In this document: in pieces, positions 9,875 to 16,842 of the stretch
Position numbering within the stretch: position 1 is the stretch's first letter
How the letters are laid out: each line of letters opens with the position of its first letter
Assembly (NCBI RefSeq): GCF_010731595.1
Contig: NZ_AP022582.1
Location: 2,418,001 to 2,482,000, forward strand
Length of the DNA stretch: 64,000 nucleotides
Source: Mycobacterium seoulense
GTDB lineage: Bacteria > Actinomycetota > Actinomycetes > Mycobacteriales > Mycobacteriaceae
Reading direction: 5' to 3'
Made by a program: the position numbers and the translations under genes
Notes under the pieces: generated by a model
Told to the model about the DNA's origin: nothing
The model's database searches: none
Seen by the model: only the letters and a program-made list of their open reading frames with translations

Positions 9875-10750
9875 ATGGCACGAGTCTGCGTGGTCGGCAG
9901 CGTGAACATGGACCTGTCGCTGCGCGTGGAGGCCCTTCCCCGGCCCGGTGAGACGGTGCTGGCGGCGTCGCTGACCCAAGCACCGGGCGGCAAAGGTGCC
10001 AATCAGGCCGTGGCGGCGGCGCGCGCGGGCGCACAGGTGCAGTTCGTCGGCGCGGTCGGCGACGACGCGGCCGGCGAACGGTTGCGCGGTCACCTGCTGG
10101 CCAACGGCGTCGGACTGGACGCGCTCGCCGAAACGCCCGGACCGAGTGGCACGGCCATCGTCGTCGTCGACGCCAACGCCGAGAACACCATCGTGGTCGC
10201 GCCGGGCGCCAATGGGCGGCTGACGCTGGATGCGGCAGCGCGACGCGTCATCGCCGGCTCCGAGGTGTTATTGACGCAACTGGAGATTCCGGTGCGCGCG
10301 GCGGTGGCGGCGGCACGGCAGGCCCGTTCGGCCGGGGCGGTCGTCATCATCAACGCCTCGCCGGCCGGCGGCGACCCGAGCCTACTGCCCGAACTGGCAA
10401 CCGCGGCCGACGTCATCGTGGTGAACGAAGCCGAGGCCGACCAGTGGCCCTGGCGCCCAATGCACTTGGTGACAACGCTGGGTGCGCGCGGAGCCCGGTA
10501 CGTGGGCGCCGACGGCGATTTCGTGGTTCCCGCTCCCGCGGTAGCCGCGGTGGACACCACCGGGGCCGGGGACGTGTTCGCCGGAGTGCTGGCCGGAAGC
10601 TGGCCGCGCAATCCGGGTTCGCCCGCCCTGCGGCGGCGCGCGTTACGGCGCGCCTGCGCCGCCGGCGCGCTGGCCACGCTGGTGTCGGGTGCCGGTAACT
10701 GCGCCCCGGACGCCGAAGCGATCGACGCGGCGCTGCACGACGACCGCTAG
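9875..10750 (+). CDS. rbsK: Ribokinase (PfkB family sugar kinase)
   Basis: 291 residues. Phosphorylates ribose (or a related sugar) with ATP. PfkB signatures are intact: CVVGSVNMDLSLRVEALPRP at the start, PGGKGANQAVAAARAGA, and the C-terminal DTTGAGDVFAGVLAGSW with catalytic Asp in GAGD. The open frame begins at 9818, but conserved sequence starts at ATG 9875 (MARVCVVGS). No ribose transporter lies nearby, so the sugar source is not indicated. Its stop shares the palindrome CTAG (10747-10750) with the stop of the convergent gntR gene. Equivalent to Rv2436 by position. Confidence 0.9.
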   Translation: MARVCVVGSVNMDLSLRVEALPRPGETVLAASLTQAPGGKGANQAVAAARAGAQVQFVGAVGDDAAGERLRGHLLANGVGLDALAETPGPSGTAIVVVDANAENTIVVAPGANGRLTLDAAARRVIAGSEVLLTQLEIPVRAAVAAARQARSAGAVVIINASPAGGDPSLLPELATAADVIVVNEAEADQWPWRPMHLVTTLGARGARYVGADGDFVVPAPAVAAVDTTGAGDVFAGVLAGSWPRNPGSPALRRRALRRACAAGALATLVSGAGNCAPDAEAIDAALHDDR

Positions 10751-11574
10751 CCGGTATGCCCGCCGACGTCGTGGGCGATTCTCAGGCTGTCGCCGGTTTC
10801 CATCTCGTCGGCCGTCTGGCTGAGCAGCAAGCGGCTGCGGCTCGGCGACAGCACCGTCGACACGCAATGATGCGGCGCCCCGGCCACGAACGCGACGCGG
10901 TTGACGCGCAGCAGCGCGGCGCCGATGGCCGTGTCGAGCAGGTGCGCGTTGCGCGGCCCGGCGATCTCGGCCGTGATCTCGTGCCGCACCCGGTCCACGG
11001 CGACGCCCGCCTCCGACAGCAACTCGTAAAGCGGCGCACGCCGCAACTCCGGCTCGGTCAGCGCGTCGGCCAGCTCCGGCGGCACCCAGGCTTCGGTCAC
11101 CATCAACGGCTCATCGGTCCTGCGTTGGCGCCGCACCCGCACGATCTGGAGCAACTCGTCGGAAGTGCCCAGGGCCTCGCCGATGGCGCGCGGCGGGCGG
11201 CGCTTCCCGATTTCGACGACCTCGACCTTGGTTTCGAATTGCGCCTGTCGCAGACCCTGCATGAACGACCGCCCAGCCCCCGATGCGTCCGAGACGTCCG
11301 TCGGGTCGTGTCGCCGTACGAACGACCCGACGCCATGCCTGCGCTCGATGTAGCCGCGGTCGGCCAGGTCCGCCAGCGCCCTGCGCACGGTGATGCGCGA
11401 TACGCCGAACTGGTCGCAGAGGGTCTGCTCGGTGGGCAACGCGTCGCCGGGGCCGATGACGCCGCGGTCGATCTCGTCGTGCAGCACCAAGAACAGCTGC
11501 CGGTGCAGCGGCACCCCGGCCGCCGCCGAGACCGGCCCTGCTCTGTCCTGCTGCACGGTGGTCAATGCTTCCAC
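10747..11574 (-). CDS. GntR-family transcriptional regulator, HutC subfamily (UTRA domain)
   Basis: 275 residues. Residues ~18-85 form the GntR winged helix (PLHRQLFLVLHDEIDRGVIG, LPTEQTLCDQFGVSRITVRR, GYIERRHGVGSFV). Residues ~105-260 form the UTRA effector domain (LLQIVRVRRQ, VTEAWVPPELA, PLYELLSEAGV). HutC-type regulators usually repress an adjacent catabolic operon and release DNA on binding a pathway metabolite. The gene is divergent from the five-gene operon starting at 11651, and a perfect palindrome (11601-11622) lies between them. Start GTG 11574 has AGGGAGG just upstream. The cognate ligand is unknown; a carboxylate intermediate is inferred. Confidence 0.93.
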   Translation of the reverse strand: MEALTTVQQDRAGPVSAAAGVPLHRQLFLVLHDEIDRGVIGPGDALPTEQTLCDQFGVSRITVRRALADLADRGYIERRHGVGSFVRRHDPTDVSDASGAGRSFMQGLRQAQFETKVEVVEIGKRRPPRAIGEALGTSDELLQIVRVRRQRRTDEPLMVTEAWVPPELADALTEPELRRAPLYELLSEAGVAVDRVRHEITAEIAGPRNAHLLDTAIGAALLRVNRVAFVAGAPHHCVSTVLSPSRSRLLLSQTADEMETGDSLRIAHDVGGHTG

Positions 11575-11600
11575 ACGGCCTCCCTTGCACAGCTCGATAG

Positions 11601-11622
11601 GTTGTTATATGTATATAACAAC
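11601..11622. promoter_or_regulatory. Perfect palindromic operator, likely GntR/HutC site
   Basis: A 10-bp arm GTTGTTATAT is followed by two bases (GT) and its exact complement. It matches the HutC-type pattern GT...TATA...AC. It sits 26 bases upstream of the gntR start and 28 bases upstream of the MmgE/PrpD start, and is strikingly AT-rich against the ~69% GC surroundings. A TTGCAC at 11585-11590 could be a -35 element, placing the palindrome over the -10 region of the rightward promoter. It probably mediates both operon repression and autoregulation (inference). Confidence 0.8.
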
Positions 11623-11650
11623 TTATCCCTTCGGCTTCCAGGGAGATCCG

Positions 11651-13072
11651 ATGAACGTGCCGGCCGCCACCGACCCGGCCGGGCCGACCGGACGCCTTGC
11701 CACCTGGGTCGCCGACCTCACGCTCGACGACATCCCACAAGCCGTCCTCGACCGCGCGAAGCACCTCTTGCTGGACGGCATCGGCTGCGCGCTCGTCGGG
11801 GCGCAACTACCGTGGTCACGCGTCGCAACCGACGCCGTCCTCGCCTTGGAAGGCCCCGGCGACGCCGTCGTCATCGGCACCGGACGCACGGCCGCGGCGC
11901 CCGCGGCGGCGATACTCAACGGCACGTTCATCCAGGGCTTCGAGCTCGACGACTTCCATCCCCTCGCCCCACTGCACAGCTGCTCGCTGCTGATTCCGGC
12001 GCTGCTGTCGACGGTGTGCACGCGGCCGCAACCCTCGACGGGCCCCGACCTCCTGCTGGCCGCGGTCGCCGGCTTCGAGGTGGGCCCGCGCGTCGGCCAC
12101 ACGCTGCACGGCACCCAGATGCTCGACCGAGGCTGGCACTCGGGATCCGTTTTCGGCACCCACGCCGCGGCAATGGCCTCCGGGAAGCTGCGCGGACTGT
12201 CCCCGGCGCAGTTGGAGGACGCCCTCGGGCTGGCCGGTACACAGTCGGCGGGGCTGATGGCCGCCCAGTACGAAGCCATGAGCAAGCGCATGCACCACGG
12301 TTTCGCGGCGCGCAACGGCTTCTACGCGGCCGGACTGGCGGCGGCCGGATACACCGGCATCAAGCGGGTGTTCGAGCGTGAATACGGCGGGTTTCTGAGC
12401 GTTTTCGGCGAGGGCCACCATCCCGACGCGGCCCTGCTGACCGGCGAACTCGGCCGACGGTGGGAGACCACCATCATCATGGTCAAGTCCTACGCCGCGA
12501 TGGGTGGATTACACGCGGCGATCGACGCCGCCCGCAGGCTGCGTGATTCGACTGCGCCCCAGGACATCTCGTCGATCGACATCACGGTCGGCGAGACCGT
12601 CTACCGGCACGGCTGGTGGCGGCCGCAGCGACCGCTCACCCCGATCGGTGCTCAGATGAACATCGGGTACGCGACCGCCGCGGCGCTGCTCGACGGAAAC
12701 GTGCTGCCCGAGCAGTTCACGCCGGCACGCCTGGACTCCGACGACATCTGGTCGCTCATCGCCGCGACGACGGTGCACCTCGACGAATCACTCGCCCACG
12801 CCGACATCGCCGAAAGGTTCCGCACCGACGTCGTGGTCACCACCCGTGACGGCGCCGTCCACCACGCCCGCGTGGCGCTGCCGCACGGCGCACCCAACGA
12901 TCCGGTCACCAACGACGAACTCGTCGACAAGTTCCACTCACTCGCCGACCGGGTCACCAGCCGCGCGCGAGCTGAAGCGATCGAGCGGCTGGTGGTCGAT
13001 CTCGACGACCTCGATGACATCGGGCAACTGATGGACCTGCTCGCGGCCCCGGTCGCGGGCGCCCTGGACTGA
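11651..13072 (+). CDS. MmgE/PrpD family protein (2-methylcitrate dehydratase-like)
   Basis: 473 residues, normal for the family. Members dehydrate 2-methylcitrate (PrpD), decarboxylate cis-aconitate (IRG1/CAD) or epimerise iminodisuccinate. Recognisable stretches: LLLDGIGCALVGAQLPWSRV, ILNGTFIQGFELDDFHPLAP, the glycine/histidine-rich HGTQMLDRGWHSGSVFGTHA, KRMHHGFAARNGFYAAGLA and VKSYAAMGGLHAAIDAAR. The frame is open from 11390, but ATG 11651 is preceded by AGGGAG and lies just past the operator. First gene of the operon; the lyase gene follows 10 bases after its stop. The exact substrate cannot be told from sequence; a branched di- or tricarboxylate is likely from the neighbours. Confidence 0.9.
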   Translation: MNVPAATDPAGPTGRLATWVADLTLDDIPQAVLDRAKHLLLDGIGCALVGAQLPWSRVATDAVLALEGPGDAVVIGTGRTAAAPAAAILNGTFIQGFELDDFHPLAPLHSCSLLIPALLSTVCTRPQPSTGPDLLLAAVAGFEVGPRVGHTLHGTQMLDRGWHSGSVFGTHAAAMASGKLRGLSPAQLEDALGLAGTQSAGLMAAQYEAMSKRMHHGFAARNGFYAAGLAAAGYTGIKRVFEREYGGFLSVFGEGHHPDAALLTGELGRRWETTIIMVKSYAAMGGLHAAIDAARRLRDSTAPQDISSIDITVGETVYRHGWWRPQRPLTPIGAQMNIGYATAAALLDGNVLPEQFTPARLDSDDIWSLIAATTVHLDESLAHADIAERFRTDVVVTTRDGAVHHARVALPHGAPNDPVTNDELVDKFHSLADRVTSRARAEAIERLVVDLDDLDDIGQLMDLLAAPVAGALD

Positions 13073-13082
13073 AAGGAGAGCC

Positions 13083-13967
13083 ATGCCTACCACCCCGGCC
13101 CGTCAACGGCTGAAGGACTTGCTCAAGACCCGTGAACTCGTCGTCGCGCCAGGCGTTTTCGACGGCATATCAGCGCACCTGACGAAACGCACGGGCCACG
13201 CCGCGGCGTACCTGACCGGTGCCGGCGTGGCGGCCTCCGGTTTCGGCCTACCCGACATCGGGCTGGTCACCGCGACCGAGATGGCCGGCCGGGTCGCGAT
13301 GATCACCGACGCGTTGGGCGACATCCCATTGATCGCCGATGCCGACACCGGCTATGGCGCACCCATCAATGTGGTGCGCACCGTTCGCTCCTACGACGCG
13401 GCGGGGGCGGCCGCGATTCAGTTGGAGGATCAGGTCTTTCCGAAACGGTGCGGCCACCTGCCCGACAAACAGGTGGTCGACGCCGCGGTCTTCGAACAGA
13501 CCCTGGCCGCGGCGCTCGACGCCCGCTCCGACGACGCCCTGCTGGTGGTGGCCCGCACCGACGCACGGGCGCCCCTCGGCCTTGAAGCTGCCATCGAACG
13601 GGCCAACCGGTACGCACGGGCGGGCGCCGACATCATCTTCGTCGAGGCGCCGCAGGACGCCGGCGAGATCGAGCGCATCGCCCGCGAAGTGGAAGCCCCC
13701 CTGTTGATCAACCTGGTGCTCGGCGGCTTGACGCCGCTGCAATCGGCGGGGCGGCTGCAGGAGTTGGGCTACGCCATCGCGATTCATCCGGGCAACCTGC
13801 TGGCGCAGGCGACCTTCGGCATGCTGCAGAGCCTTTGCGAATTGAACGGCACCGACATCGCCGGCCACCTGCCCACCACGCCCGGCGATTTCTTCAACTT
13901 GGTGGGGATGGCCGAATGGCTGGATCGCGACGTCCGATACGCCCGGAAGGACCCGTCATGGGCATGA
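13083..13967 (+). CDS. Isocitrate lyase/PEP mutase superfamily lyase (PrpB/dimethylmalate lyase-like)
   Basis: 294 residues, the length of methylisocitrate lyase (PrpB). Metal-binding DADTGYG, the active loop VFPKRCGH with catalytic Cys, and VARTDAR are all present. The K[KR]CGH loop marks C-C bond lyases (isocitrate, 2-methylisocitrate or 2,3-dimethylmalate) rather than phosphonate mutases. It would cleave the hydroxy-acid made by the hydratase encoded next, giving pyruvate or glyoxylate plus an acid. Strong ribosome site GAAAGGAG before ATG 13083. The last 10 bases overlap the next gene. The true substrate is open: methylisocitrate, dimethylmalate and oxaloacetate are all handled by relatives. 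Confidence 0.92.
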   Translation: MPTTPARQRLKDLLKTRELVVAPGVFDGISAHLTKRTGHAAAYLTGAGVAASGFGLPDIGLVTATEMAGRVAMITDALGDIPLIADADTGYGAPINVVRTVRSYDAAGAAAIQLEDQVFPKRCGHLPDKQVVDAAVFEQTLAAALDARSDDALLVVARTDARAPLGLEAAIERANRYARAGADIIFVEAPQDAGEIERIAREVEAPLLINLVLGGLTPLQSAGRLQELGYAIAIHPGNLLAQATFGMLQSLCELNGTDIAGHLPTTPGDFFNLVGMAEWLDRDVRYARKDPSWA

Positions 13968-15205
13968 CCATCATCGAGAAGATCTTCGCCCGCAAGGCCG
14001 GTCGGGATGCGGTGTCGGCGGGTGACACGGTCGTGGTCGACGTCGACATGACCGTGCTCATCGATCTGCAGTTCGCCACGATGTGGATTTCGCCGAACCG
14101 GATCCACGACCCCGACAAACTGGCCGTCGTCATGGACCACGCCGTTCCCGCACCGACCATCAAAGACGCCGCCGCGGGTCCGCAGGCCCGCAAATTCGTC
14201 GCCGACTTCGGCATCGAGCGGTTCTACGACGTCGGCAGGCACGGCATCTGTCACCAGGTGATCGCCGAGAATGGACTGGCACGGCCTGGAGAAGTCCTGG
14301 CCTGCACCGACTCTCACACCTGTGCCGCGGGCGCTTACAACACCGCCGCCCGGGGCCTGGGACCCGCGGAGATCTACTCGATCATGTGCACCGGCACGAC
14401 GTGGTTCCAGGTCGCGCCCACGATCCGGTACGAGCTCGATGGCGTCAAACCACAGACCGTCAGCGGGAAGGACATCTTTCTGCACATCGCCAACGAGTAC
14501 GGCGATGCGCCGAATTTGAACCTGGAATTCGGCGGCACCGGCCTGGCCGGTCTTCCGATGCACGACCGGCGCACCATCGCGACCCAGTGCGCCGAGGTTT
14601 CCGCCGACTTCGCCACGTTCGAGCCCGACGACATGCTGGCGTCGTTTCTGCGCGAGCGCGGCGTCACCGGATACGGCGCCGTCACACCCGATTCCGATGC
14701 CGCATACCAGGAGATCCGCCATGTCGACTTGGCAACGCTGGAGCCTTACGTGGCGCGGCCGGGAACGGTCAGCCGCAACGGGCTGCCCGTCTCCCAGCTG
14801 GACCGCCGCAAGGTCGACCAGGCATTCATCGGCTCGTGTGCGAATGGACAGCTCGAGGACCTCGAGATCGCCGCACGGGTGGTGCGCGGCAAGTCCGTCG
14901 CTAGAGGCGTGCGGTTGCTCGTCACGCCCGCCTCGCAAGCGGTTTACCGGGATGCCATGCGGCTGGGGTACCTGCAGGACCTGGCGGACGCGGGTGCGGT
15001 CATCACCAACTCCACCTGCGGCGCCTGTTTCGGCTACCACATGGGGGTGGTCGGTCCCGGGGAGGTGTGCATCACCTCGAGCACCCGCAACTTCACCGGC
15101 CGCATGGGCAGCACCGAGGCGGAGATTTTCATGGCGTCACCGGCAACCGTTGCCGCGTCGGCAATCACCGGCTACATCACCGACCCGAGGAGTGTGACGG
15201 CATGA
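13958..15205 (+). CDS. Aconitase-family hydratase large subunit (LeuC/homoaconitase-like)
   Basis: 415 residues, the short IPMI2/homoaconitase-type large subunit rather than the ~470-residue LeuC of leucine synthesis. Cluster-binding cysteines are seen in FIGSCANGQ and in NSTCGACFG (CxxC). The first motif is [20 protein letters not shown], where leucine-pathway LeuC typically has CGDSHTxTHGAFG, suggesting a different substrate. C-terminal [12 protein letters not shown] is the substrate-binding arginine region. ATG 13958 has GGAAGG eight bases upstream and overlaps the lyase gene by 10 bases; an ATG at 13964 (ATGA overlap) is an alternative. It pairs with the small subunit encoded immediately downstream. 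Confidence 0.9.
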
Positions 15206-15762
15206 CCGTGGTGTTCGGCGGAAGGGTCTGGGTGTTCGGAGACAACCTGAACACCGACGCCATGTACCCGGCCTTCGCCATGAAGATGGATCCGTCGGAG
15301 GCGGCCAAGCACATCTTCTACGAGGTCCGCCCGGGTTGGACCGACCAGGTGTCCCCAGGTGACATCGTCGTGGCCGGCAGAAACTTCGGGCTCGGATCGT
15401 CACGGCCCGTCGCGGCCCTCTTCGTCGAGCTCGGCGTCGCGGGACTGGTCGCCGAGGAATTCAACTCGTTGTTCTTCCGCAACGCCGTCAACGCCGGCCT
15501 GCCGGCGATGACCCTGCCCCATGCCACCACCGTCTTCCACGAAGGGGACACGGGGACGTTCGACCTGACCGCCGGCACCTGGCGTAACGACACCACGGGT
15601 GCGTCCGGAACCGTCCCCGAACTCCCCGGGCTCATCCTCGACATCATCGAAAGCGGCGGCGTGCTGCCACGGTTGGCCCAGCAGGGTTATCTACCCGGCG
15701 AATTGGGCGACCTGTTACGGTCGCCCACCGTCGCGATTCGCGGCGCGGGCAGCGGCGCATGA
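15202..15762 (+). CDS. Aconitase-family hydratase small subunit (LeuD-like)
   Basis: 186 residues. Swivel domain of a two-subunit dehydratase/isomerase: [20 protein letters not shown] near the N-terminus, the substrate loop [20 protein letters not shown] at ~60-80 (LeuD usually has NFGCGSSREH), and [20 protein letters not shown]. With the preceding subunit it should hydrate or isomerise an unsaturated di- or tricarboxylate. ATG overlaps the large-subunit stop (ATGA, 15202-15205). The frame is open upstream, but only this start gives a conserved N-terminus. The altered loop (LGSSRPV) again argues against a role in leucine synthesis. Confidence 0.9.
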
Positions 15763-16307
15763 TGACACCGCTGGGCAGGCTTCTGCGTGGTGTCCGCGCC
15801 GGCGCGCACCGAAGTCCCCTTGCCCATAGGGCGTTCGATGCGCCCGCGTCCATCAGCGTCAGCAGCACCGCCTTCACCGACGGGGGCGGCATGCCGACTT
15901 CCAGCGCCGGCCAGGGCGTGGGGGACAACGTCTCGCCGCCCTTGCGGTGGACCGCGCTGCCGCCAAGGACCCGACAGGCGGTGCTCATCATCGACGACGT
16001 CGACGTCCCGCTCCCCCGCCCACTGCTGCACACCGTCGCGGTGATCGAACCAACGCTGGACGGCCTCGACGCCGGCGGGTTGCGGCCGGGCGCGCCAGGC
16101 ATACGCTGCCTGCGAGCCGATCTCGGCCATCGCGGCTACGCCGGGCCGCGCCCGATCCCCGGCCACGGGCCGCACCACTACCGATTCCATGTGTTCGCGA
16201 TCGAGCACGCCGTCCCCGACCACATCACCACGGCCAAGGCGTTGCTGGCCGCGATGAGGGGCCACGTCCTGGCCCGCGGTGTGCTGACCGGAACCTACGA
16301 ACGCTGA
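15759..16307 (+). CDS. YbhB/YbcL (PEBP/Raf kinase inhibitor)-like protein
   Basis: 182 residues. Phosphatidylethanolamine-binding protein fold: [20 protein letters not shown] corresponds to the DPDAP...HW ligand-pocket region, and [20 protein letters not shown] to the GP..PP.G.HRY.F motif. ATG 15759 overlaps the small-subunit stop (ATGATG), so it is the fifth cistron of the operon; a second ATG at 15762 is possible. No signal peptide is obvious. The biochemical role of bacterial PEBP proteins is poorly known, and nothing here shows whether it acts in the pathway or merely rides with it. Confidence 0.85.
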
Positions 16308-16434: not shown

Positions 16435-16842
16435 ATGTCCGCGACCACGATTGACCGCACGGGCACCCGGGACGGCCTGCTCCGCCTGGCCATGCGCGCC
16501 GACGCCGCCATCAGCGGCGTGGTCGGCCTGGCCGGTATCCCGCTGGCCGGAGAACTCGCCGAGCTTTCGGGGACCACGAAGACCTTCGAGTACGCCATGG
16601 CCGCGTTCTTGATCGGCTACGGCGTGGTCGTGTTCGGGCTCGCGGCCCTGCCCTCGGTACGCCGCGCCGGCATGGGCGTCATCGTCGCCAACTTGGCGTA
16701 CACGGTGGCCGCCGTCGTGCTGGTGCTCGAAGGCGTCTTCCCGTTGACTACCGCCGGCGTCGCGTTGAACCTGGCGGCCGGCGCCTACACGCTGGTGTTC
16801 GCCGAACTGCAATACCAGGGCTGGCGCCGCGCGAGGGCGTGA
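16435..16842 (+). CDS. Small integral membrane protein (Rv2437-like)
   Basis: 135 residues with four predicted helices, around ISGVVGLAGIPLAGELAEL, TFEYAMAAFLIGYGVVVFGL, MGVIVANLAYTVAAVVLVLE and TAGVALNLAAGAYTLVFAEL. Ribosome site GAAAGGAA lies six bases before ATG 16435. Size and position between rbsK and nadE match M. tuberculosis Rv2437. If so, the 10747-16307 block is an insertion between rbsK and this gene. No functional motif was recognised. Convergent with nadE; a strong inverted repeat separates them. Confidence 0.8.
   Translation: MSATTIDRTGTRDGLLRLAMRADAAISGVVGLAGIPLAGELAELSGTTKTFEYAMAAFLIGYGVVVFGLAALPSVRRAGMGVIVANLAYTVAAVVLVLEGVFPLTTAGVALNLAAGAYTLVFAELQYQGWRRARA

Follow-up and report, generated by a model that had tools for sequence, protein, structure and literature searches.

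A GntR-linked gene cassette of Mycobacterium seoulense with a proposed role in coenzyme A-independent catabolism of branched C4 dicarboxylates

The distal branch of nicotinate fermentation in Eubacterium barkeri runs through Mii, DmdAB and dimethylmalate lyase (DML), and the 2-methylcitrate cycle proceeds through PrpD, AcnD or AcnB, and PrpB. Here we analyse a window of 64,000 nucleotides from Mycobacterium seoulense (C1:2418001-2482000 of its single-contig 5.53-Mb genome), in which a GntR/UTRA regulator gene faces an operon for an MmgE/PrpD-superfamily enzyme (MmgE), a C-C lyase of the PEP mutase/isocitrate lyase (ICL) superfamily, LeuC-like and LeuD-like hydro-lyase subunits and a PEBP protein (Table 1; gene coordinates are window positions). 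The interpretation that we favour, at a probability of about 0.55, is that these genes form a coenzyme A (CoA)-independent catabolic cassette that would convert an externally supplied alkyl-branched C4 dicarboxylate into pyruvate and a short acid, and that GntR would repress through one palindrome.

The cassette shares with the nicotinate branch a LeuC/LeuD-DmdB hydratase and a KRCGH lyase that shows T-G-A and V212 as in the DML structure 3fa3, and a relative (L105) has a gene of the PrpF family, which we take to be the family of Mii; it differs in having MmgE instead of Mii, in lacking PrpF and nicotinate genes in the window operon, and in having its own palindrome and regulator. The 2-methylcitrate cycle matches the cassette in its superfamilies and in their logical order, whereas the cassette MmgE is not PrpD, its lyase is not PrpB, its hydratase is a two-subunit LeuCD and no synthase is present. 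The closest solved large subunit belongs to the isopropylmalate/citramalate isomerase (LeuCD) of Methanocaldococcus jannaschii, a biosynthetic enzyme that acts on small branched malates but differs from the cassette LeuD in its substrate loop and in its GSSRE motif. HutC/UTRA-type GntR regulators likewise combine a helix-turn-helix (HTH) and a UTRA domain with a divergent promoter and a palindrome; the cassette GntR, however, falls below the HutC cut-off, and its palindrome is single-copy and presumably longer than the HutC consensus. In the Pseudomonas aeruginosa PA0878-0886 cluster for branched short-chain dicarboxylates, as described in part of one report, an MmgE protein probably acts on a free branched dicarboxylate and the substrate class likely overlaps with that of the cassette, but the route runs over CoA thioesters (Ict, Ich, Ccl), for which the cassette operon has no genes (PMC9875883). 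The same excerpts state that the MmgE protein was needed for (S)-methylsuccinate and that neither (R)-citramalate nor citraconate was used by the CoA route (PMC9875883).

A conserved cassette with a private palindrome

A sequence-only reading of the window had described a GntR gene opposite five co-directional, tightly packed genes, and the open reading frames, their spacing and their Pfam domains bear this out: the MmgE and lyase genes are 10 bases apart, the lyase and LeuC genes overlap by 13 bases (GTG start) or 10 bases (ATG start), LeuC/LeuD and LeuD/PEBP each overlap by 4, and the Pfam domains of all six proteins score above their cut-offs. Its statement that the operon encodes no synthase, CoA ligase or substrate transporter holds for the five operon genes in a Pfam and NCBIfam scan. 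Genes for Ict-Ich-Ccl (CoA transferase, hydratase and citramalyl-CoA lyase) were also absent from the operon, the rest of the genome not having been searched for them.

A LeuC-profile scan of genome contigs returned 199 relatives, of which the best 80, 68-94% identical, were kept. Of the 62 loci with sufficient flanking sequence, 50 have the MmgE, lyase, LeuC and LeuD genes next to each other in this order, marking the set as a conserved module; gene by gene, MmgE is found in 54, the lyase in 60 and LeuD in 61 (the gene caller was home-made and trained on the same loci, so neighbour calls are approximate; it missed the LeuD of L100, which tblastn recovers in the counterpart L213). The relatives, the best of them mycobacterial, include members of Mycobacterium, Nocardia, Amycolatopsis, Streptomyces, Streptacidiphilus, Catenulispora, Kutzneria, Pseudonocardia and Solirubrobacterales. 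M. colombiense has the whole cassette, M. persicum and M. gastri have it minus MmgE, and protein-database entries for MmgE at 85% identity carry the label M. avium. In the window's family, 4 of 151 genomes, M. seoulense included, yielded a lyase at least 60% identical, and a phylum-wide search at a strict E-value found matches in congeners only (3 of 396).

The 76-base stretch between the GntR and MmgE genes contains a 22-bp palindrome, GTTGTTATATGTATATAACAAC, new here. Among 31 other GntR loci from the LeuC-profile set, GTTGTTATA-N4-TATAACAAC is exact in 29, carries one mismatch in L060 and is missing from L054. At up to three mismatches, 100 shuffles of the window gave an expectation of zero and the palindrome is a single site in its own genome, so that no remote gene shares this operator here. 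The remote supply genes to which the sequence-only reading had pointed were not found under it, and the same scan gave no hidden partner gene with this palindrome. Searched at up to one mismatch, congeners carry the palindrome once per genome in 52 of 396 cases and lack it in 344, and a reversed control pattern gave zero matches in all 396. It lies within 250 bases of a GntR gene in all 52 operator-bearing congeners, 48 of which have LeuC (three of the 52 being represented by the window, L036 and L027 in these and the gene-content counts); some of their contigs have an incomplete cassette, cut short or, as in L205, mostly lost. The mycobacterial cassettes L070, L071 and L073 have an IclR gene, and the GntR-type palindrome was not found there.

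Regulator and site are common to two phyla. The comparison covered plasmid records of Burkholderiaceae, among which the loci L110 of Paraburkholderia and L113 of Caballeronia have genes for lyase, LeuC', LeuD', MmgE, MFS and GntR, with identities to the window's proteins of 57% (MmgE), 44% (lyase), 39% (GntR) and 29% (LeuC'). The Paraburkholderia GntR has exactly the HTH stretch FGVSRITVRRAL of the window, from which the Caballeronia GntR departs at one place; an exact copy of the palindrome lies upstream of the Caballeronia lyase gene and a copy with two mismatches in Paraburkholderia, with zero expected from 100 shuffles in both cases. LeuC' and LeuD' of L110 score above the ordinary leucine cut-offs (599.1 bits against 560.25 and 173.1 against 116.25), and the hydratase has been exchanged for one of leucine type while the operator was kept.

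The GntR protein has a UTRA domain and reaches 106.5 bits against the HutC equivalog model (cut-off 220), so the earlier label 'HutC-type' stands for the superfamily and not for the equivalog. Family and position suggest that GntR binds the palindrome and would repress both itself and the operon from this one site between the two start codons, a pathway compound releasing it; the regulator is apparently dedicated to this operon.

Table 1. Features of the locus, in window positions
Feature	Position	Strand	Evidence or distance
GntR/UTRA regulator (HutC superfamily)	10747-11574	-	Pfam GntR 68.6 bits, UTRA 72.9 bits
Proposed operator GTTGTTATA-TGTA-TATAACAAC	11601-11622	no strand	26 bp from GntR start, 28 bp from MmgE start
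MmgE/PrpD-superfamily enzyme, CAD/IDS-epimerase branch; proposed entry step (dehydratase, isomerase or epimerase)	11651-13072	+	Pfam MmgE_PrpD N + C
PEP mutase/isocitrate lyase superfamily C-C lyase, dimethylmalate-lyase-like pocket	13083-13967	+	Pfam PEP_mutase, ICL
LeuC/HacA-family hydro-lyase large subunit	13955 (GTG) or 13958 (ATG) to 15205	+	Pfam Aconitase
LeuD/DmdB-family small subunit	15202-15762	+	Pfam Aconitase_C
PEBP (YbhB/YbcL-like), putative accessory protein	15759-16307	+	PF01161 82.8 bits

Enzyme families and the proposed route

The KRCGH-type lyase named by the sequence-only reading is read directly as K121-R122-C123-G124-H125. In 75 cassette lyases (at least 55% identity, more than 240 aa) drawn from the 80 loci, K121, C123, H125, D58, D86, D88, E115, R158, E188 and N210 are kept throughout, V212 is found in 74 as against T212 in nine of nine PrpB proteins, and the PrpB motif N-x-T-E-F-G (T212-E213-F214) is absent from all 75. 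The ICL position that matches PrpB T212 binds the succinate part. T45-G46-A47 and V212 match 3fa3, and F186, I234 and P236 resemble PrpB, in which they are associated with accommodation of a C2 methyl. By PDB score the lyase ranks closest to petal death protein, then to 4iqd, DML and, behind these, PrpB. A quick tree drew on 29 of 76 cassette rows (the window counted among them) and excluded the PEP mutase and ICL proteins of the M. seoulense genome; in it, PrpB and 4iqd form one clade (support 98) and the cassette lyases a separate one (support 99).

The LeuC-like subunit scores 438 bits against NF001614 (cut-off 385) and fails the leucine equivalogs TIGR00170 (178.9 of 560.25) and TIGR02083 (366.1 of 610.65), scores on which a role of LeuCD in leucine biosynthesis was set aside. 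Its nearest PDB entry is the M. jannaschii isopropylmalate/citramalate isomerase, and C295, C355 and C358, which we take to be Fe-S ligands, are invariant across four alignment rows. The LeuD-like subunit falls in the LeuD/DmdB subfamily (TIGR02087, 133.2 bits, cut-off 108.95). Its loop reads F-A-M-[KR]; across 77 rows, window included, Met27 is found in 74, Leu in two and a gap in one, and at this position M. jannaschii isopropylmalate isomerase has Val and M. jannaschii homoaconitase Arg. The LeuD loop sets substrate preference, according to part of a published study (PMC7308503).

MmgE reaches 27.7 bits against the PrpD equivalog model (cut-off 950) and is not PrpD. Its nearest folds are cis-aconitate decarboxylase (CAD), the best, and iminodisuccinate (IDS) epimerase, within 1.5 Z, and it aligns with His/His/Lys of CAD, presumably the catalytic residues. 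Because these folds are a decarboxylase and an epimerase, the label of dehydratase is not secured, and an isomerase or epimerase role would be as likely. The proposal of the sequence-only reading that the set dehydrates, rehydrates and cleaves an external branched carboxylate therefore keeps its core, distinct from a plain methylcitrate route, and loses its firm first step.

Indirect argument supports the following class of pathway. MmgE would bring a stereo- or regio-isomer into the route by elimination, allylic isomerization or epimerization, giving a 2-methyl(-3-alkyl)maleate (citraconate or dimethylmaleate); LeuC-LeuD would hydrate this to (2R)-citramalate or (2R,3S)-2,3-dimethylmalate; and the lyase would cleave the product in a retro-Claisen/aldol reaction to pyruvate and acetate or propionate. 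We infer the substrate class (citramalate/citraconate or dimethylmalate type) from the lyase pocket, the LeuD loop and the leucine-type LeuCD of the Caballeronia/Paraburkholderia version. V212, LeuD Met27 and the leucine-type LeuCD of Paraburkholderia would all point away from a third carboxylate, and the PrpB-like F186, I234 and P236, if they act as in PrpB, suggest room for a C2 methyl and hence pyruvate as a product; the class that would remain is 2-methyl(-3-alkyl)malate. PrpF in L105 suggests a double-bond shift ahead of hydration. An external source of substrate is supported by transporter genes that a minority of relatives have next to the cassette, namely MFS (c38) in L051, L067 and L090 and ABC (c31) in L081, L101 and L102, three of 80 loci each; NMT1-type or similar ABC genes also occur in the plasmid loci L111 and L112. 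Engineered Aspergillus niger secretes citramalate and citraconate, as part of one paper reports (PMC6862759). We found neither the gene set (MmgE with isopropylmalate dehydratase and methylisocitrate lyase or GntR) nor a substrate reported for it in open-licence PMC full text, and a description elsewhere is possible.

Several points weigh against this proposal. The split that groups cassette lyases with the DML (3fa3) side has a support of only 67, it leaves the petal death protein (PDP) on the PrpB side, and DML and PDP form long branches. The functions assigned to PrpB T212 and to the LeuD-loop Arg are drawn from homology and general knowledge of the families, and a further study consulted for residue roles did not supply them (PMC7609661). 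According to excerpts of one study, single swaps of this kind changed PrpB/ICL specificity little, and residues alone explain little (PMC11982470). Genes inside methylcitrate clusters have been named dimethylmalate lyase in print, in the parts seen of two papers (PMC8471276, PMC9804861), so that a DML-like appearance is no proof of a DML role. The LeuD motif is GSSRP and not the substrate motif GSSRE in 76 of 77 cassette rows; part of the LeuD study calls the motif at this position highly conserved in isopropylmalate isomerases and aconitases (PMC7308503). No assay of any cassette-clade enzyme was found in open-licence PMC full text, transporters stand beside few cassettes only, and the gene set is not rigid, since MmgE is missing from 8 and PEBP from 28 of the 62 loci.

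Alternative substrates

Catabolism of 2- or 3-isopropylmalate, or another long 2-alkylmalate, to glyoxylate or a 2-oxo acid and a branched fatty acid is the alternative that survives best, though we consider it unlikely. It would suit the ordinary LeuC/LeuD of the Paraburkholderia version, the LeuB homologue adjoining LeuCD and lyase in Arthrobacter L111, and the top PDB match of the lyase, petal death protein, which cleaves several 2-alkylmalates. F186, I234 and P236 argue the other way in their likeness to PrpB, which takes a C2 methyl.

Next in plausibility, and rather improbable, is a CoA-free route for itaconate or methylitaconate, in which MmgE would move the double bond, yielding citraconate or dimethylmaleate, LeuCD would add water to form (R)-citramalate or dimethylmalate and the lyase would release pyruvate and acetate or propionate. 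CAD, the cousin of MmgE, makes itaconate, and in L105 PrpF would carry out the same shift.

A variant of the methylcitrate cycle, with LeuCD in place of AcnD/AcnB and a citrate synthase elsewhere supplying 2-methylcitrate for conversion to pyruvate and succinate, is more doubtful again. The superfamilies MmgE/PrpD, aconitase and PrpB correspond step for step, PrpB is the top NCBIfam model for the lyase, yet below its cut-off (247.9 against 354.4), and the genome has an orphan true PrpD (G000:C1:2915649-2917142, L132 and L135; 964.7 bits, cut-off 950) whose surroundings, to about 7 kb, contain no match to citrate synthase or to a lyase, an incomplete-looking methylcitrate cycle. The only citrate synthases found in the genome are encoded about 0.9 Mb from the operon, by two genes (three PF00285 matches) that flank a single other gene. 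Against this variant, the cassette MmgE and lyase fall outside PrpD and PrpB by score, fold and motif, and no synthase shares the palindrome in this genome, leaving MmgE and lyase outside the ordinary cycle into which, on the sequence-only reading, they might have fallen. Moreover, in 7 of 16 family loci (L008-L023) a lyase stands between citrate synthase and a gene of 470-491 aa, presumably prpD, and these lyases form a different clade from those of the cassette, and the Paraburkholderia LeuCD is of the ordinary leucine type.

Salvage of tricarboxylates (cis- or trans-aconitate, tricarballylate or homocitrate-type acids) is the least plausible: more distant LeuC relatives (38%) have genes for TcuA, PrpF and a TTT transporter as neighbours in Hydrogenophaga (L108) and genes for a lyase and TTT in Roseomonas (L106), and the MmgE fold is near CAD, but no TcuA or TTT was noted among the annotated minority of neighbours of close cassettes, and the pockets seem to lack residues of the distal-carboxylate type.

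Variation, loss and implications

Regulators within 6 kb of LeuC in the 80 loci are GntR-UTRA in 32, IclR (c18) in 14, AsnC/Lrp (c21) in 10 and GntR-FCD (c23) in 9, each cluster being named from one representative and a minority of neighbour genes having a Pfam name. PEBP is near in 34 of the 62 loci and an MBL-fold cluster (c17) in 11, neither in 18 and both in L095; among the matches listed for the c17 protein (60 of 77), the best is hydroxyacylglutathione hydrolase (57.5 bits), with named lactonases at 40 bits or less. Loss of MmgE (8 of 62) needs five changes on the LeuC tree, three of them forced by well-supported branches, and the best remnant in 12 loci without MmgE is one 22-residue match (E 0.46). 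Among 44 well-flanked loci of the 52 operator-bearing congeners, 37 have both MmgE and PEBP, five neither, one MmgE only and one PEBP only; a functional link between the two was set aside, since L167, L185 and L193, which make up three of these five losses, apparently correspond to a single clade of the LeuC tree. In the close congeners L216 and L217 the cassette is absent and a small gene alone parts rbsK from nadE (the probe, the small protein, has paralogues, and only L215-L221 of 30 loci are informative). Between rbsK and this small gene, congener L219 has a decayed cassette, with GntR broken in two and part of PEBP left. Repeated loss of MmgE and these empty or decayed sites mark the cassette as an optional, loss-prone set. 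The small protein (16438-16842, between PEBP and nadE) has no Pfam or NCBIfam match and has homologues in 54 of 60 congeners, some as tandem pairs.

Related sets vary further. S. cattleyicolor (L105) has an AsnC-type regulator, LeuC, LeuD, a 33% identical MmgE, PrpF and lyase, and Ancylobacter (L104) has lyase-LeuC-LeuD with MmgE absent. An Arthrobacter crystallopoietes plasmid (L111:2517-10837) carries GntR, ABC transporter, LeuB, LeuC, LeuD and 56% identical lyase genes in a row, a related yet different catabolic set. Close LeuCD relatives adjoin TauD, YcaO, nitroreductase and MFS genes in Streptomyces (L098:8662-10415), by appearance a natural-product cluster, and an HMGL-like gene (isopropylmalate/homocitrate synthase type) in Amycolatopsis jejuensis (L099:8098-11781).

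If the proposed pathway is correct, the cassette would encode a complete short pathway under a switch of its own, distributed over Actinomycetota, with a Burkholderiaceae counterpart in which the hydratase is swapped and the operator kept. The chemistry of free branched C4 dicarboxylates is relevant to fungal metabolites, plastic monomers and host itaconate, and the single private operator offers a cheap handle on the substrate, through the acid that releases the repressor. Should the itaconate route hold, MmgE would add a new reaction to its family, and carrier mycobacteria and other actinobacteria would use fungal or macrophage itaconate without Ict-Ich-Ccl.

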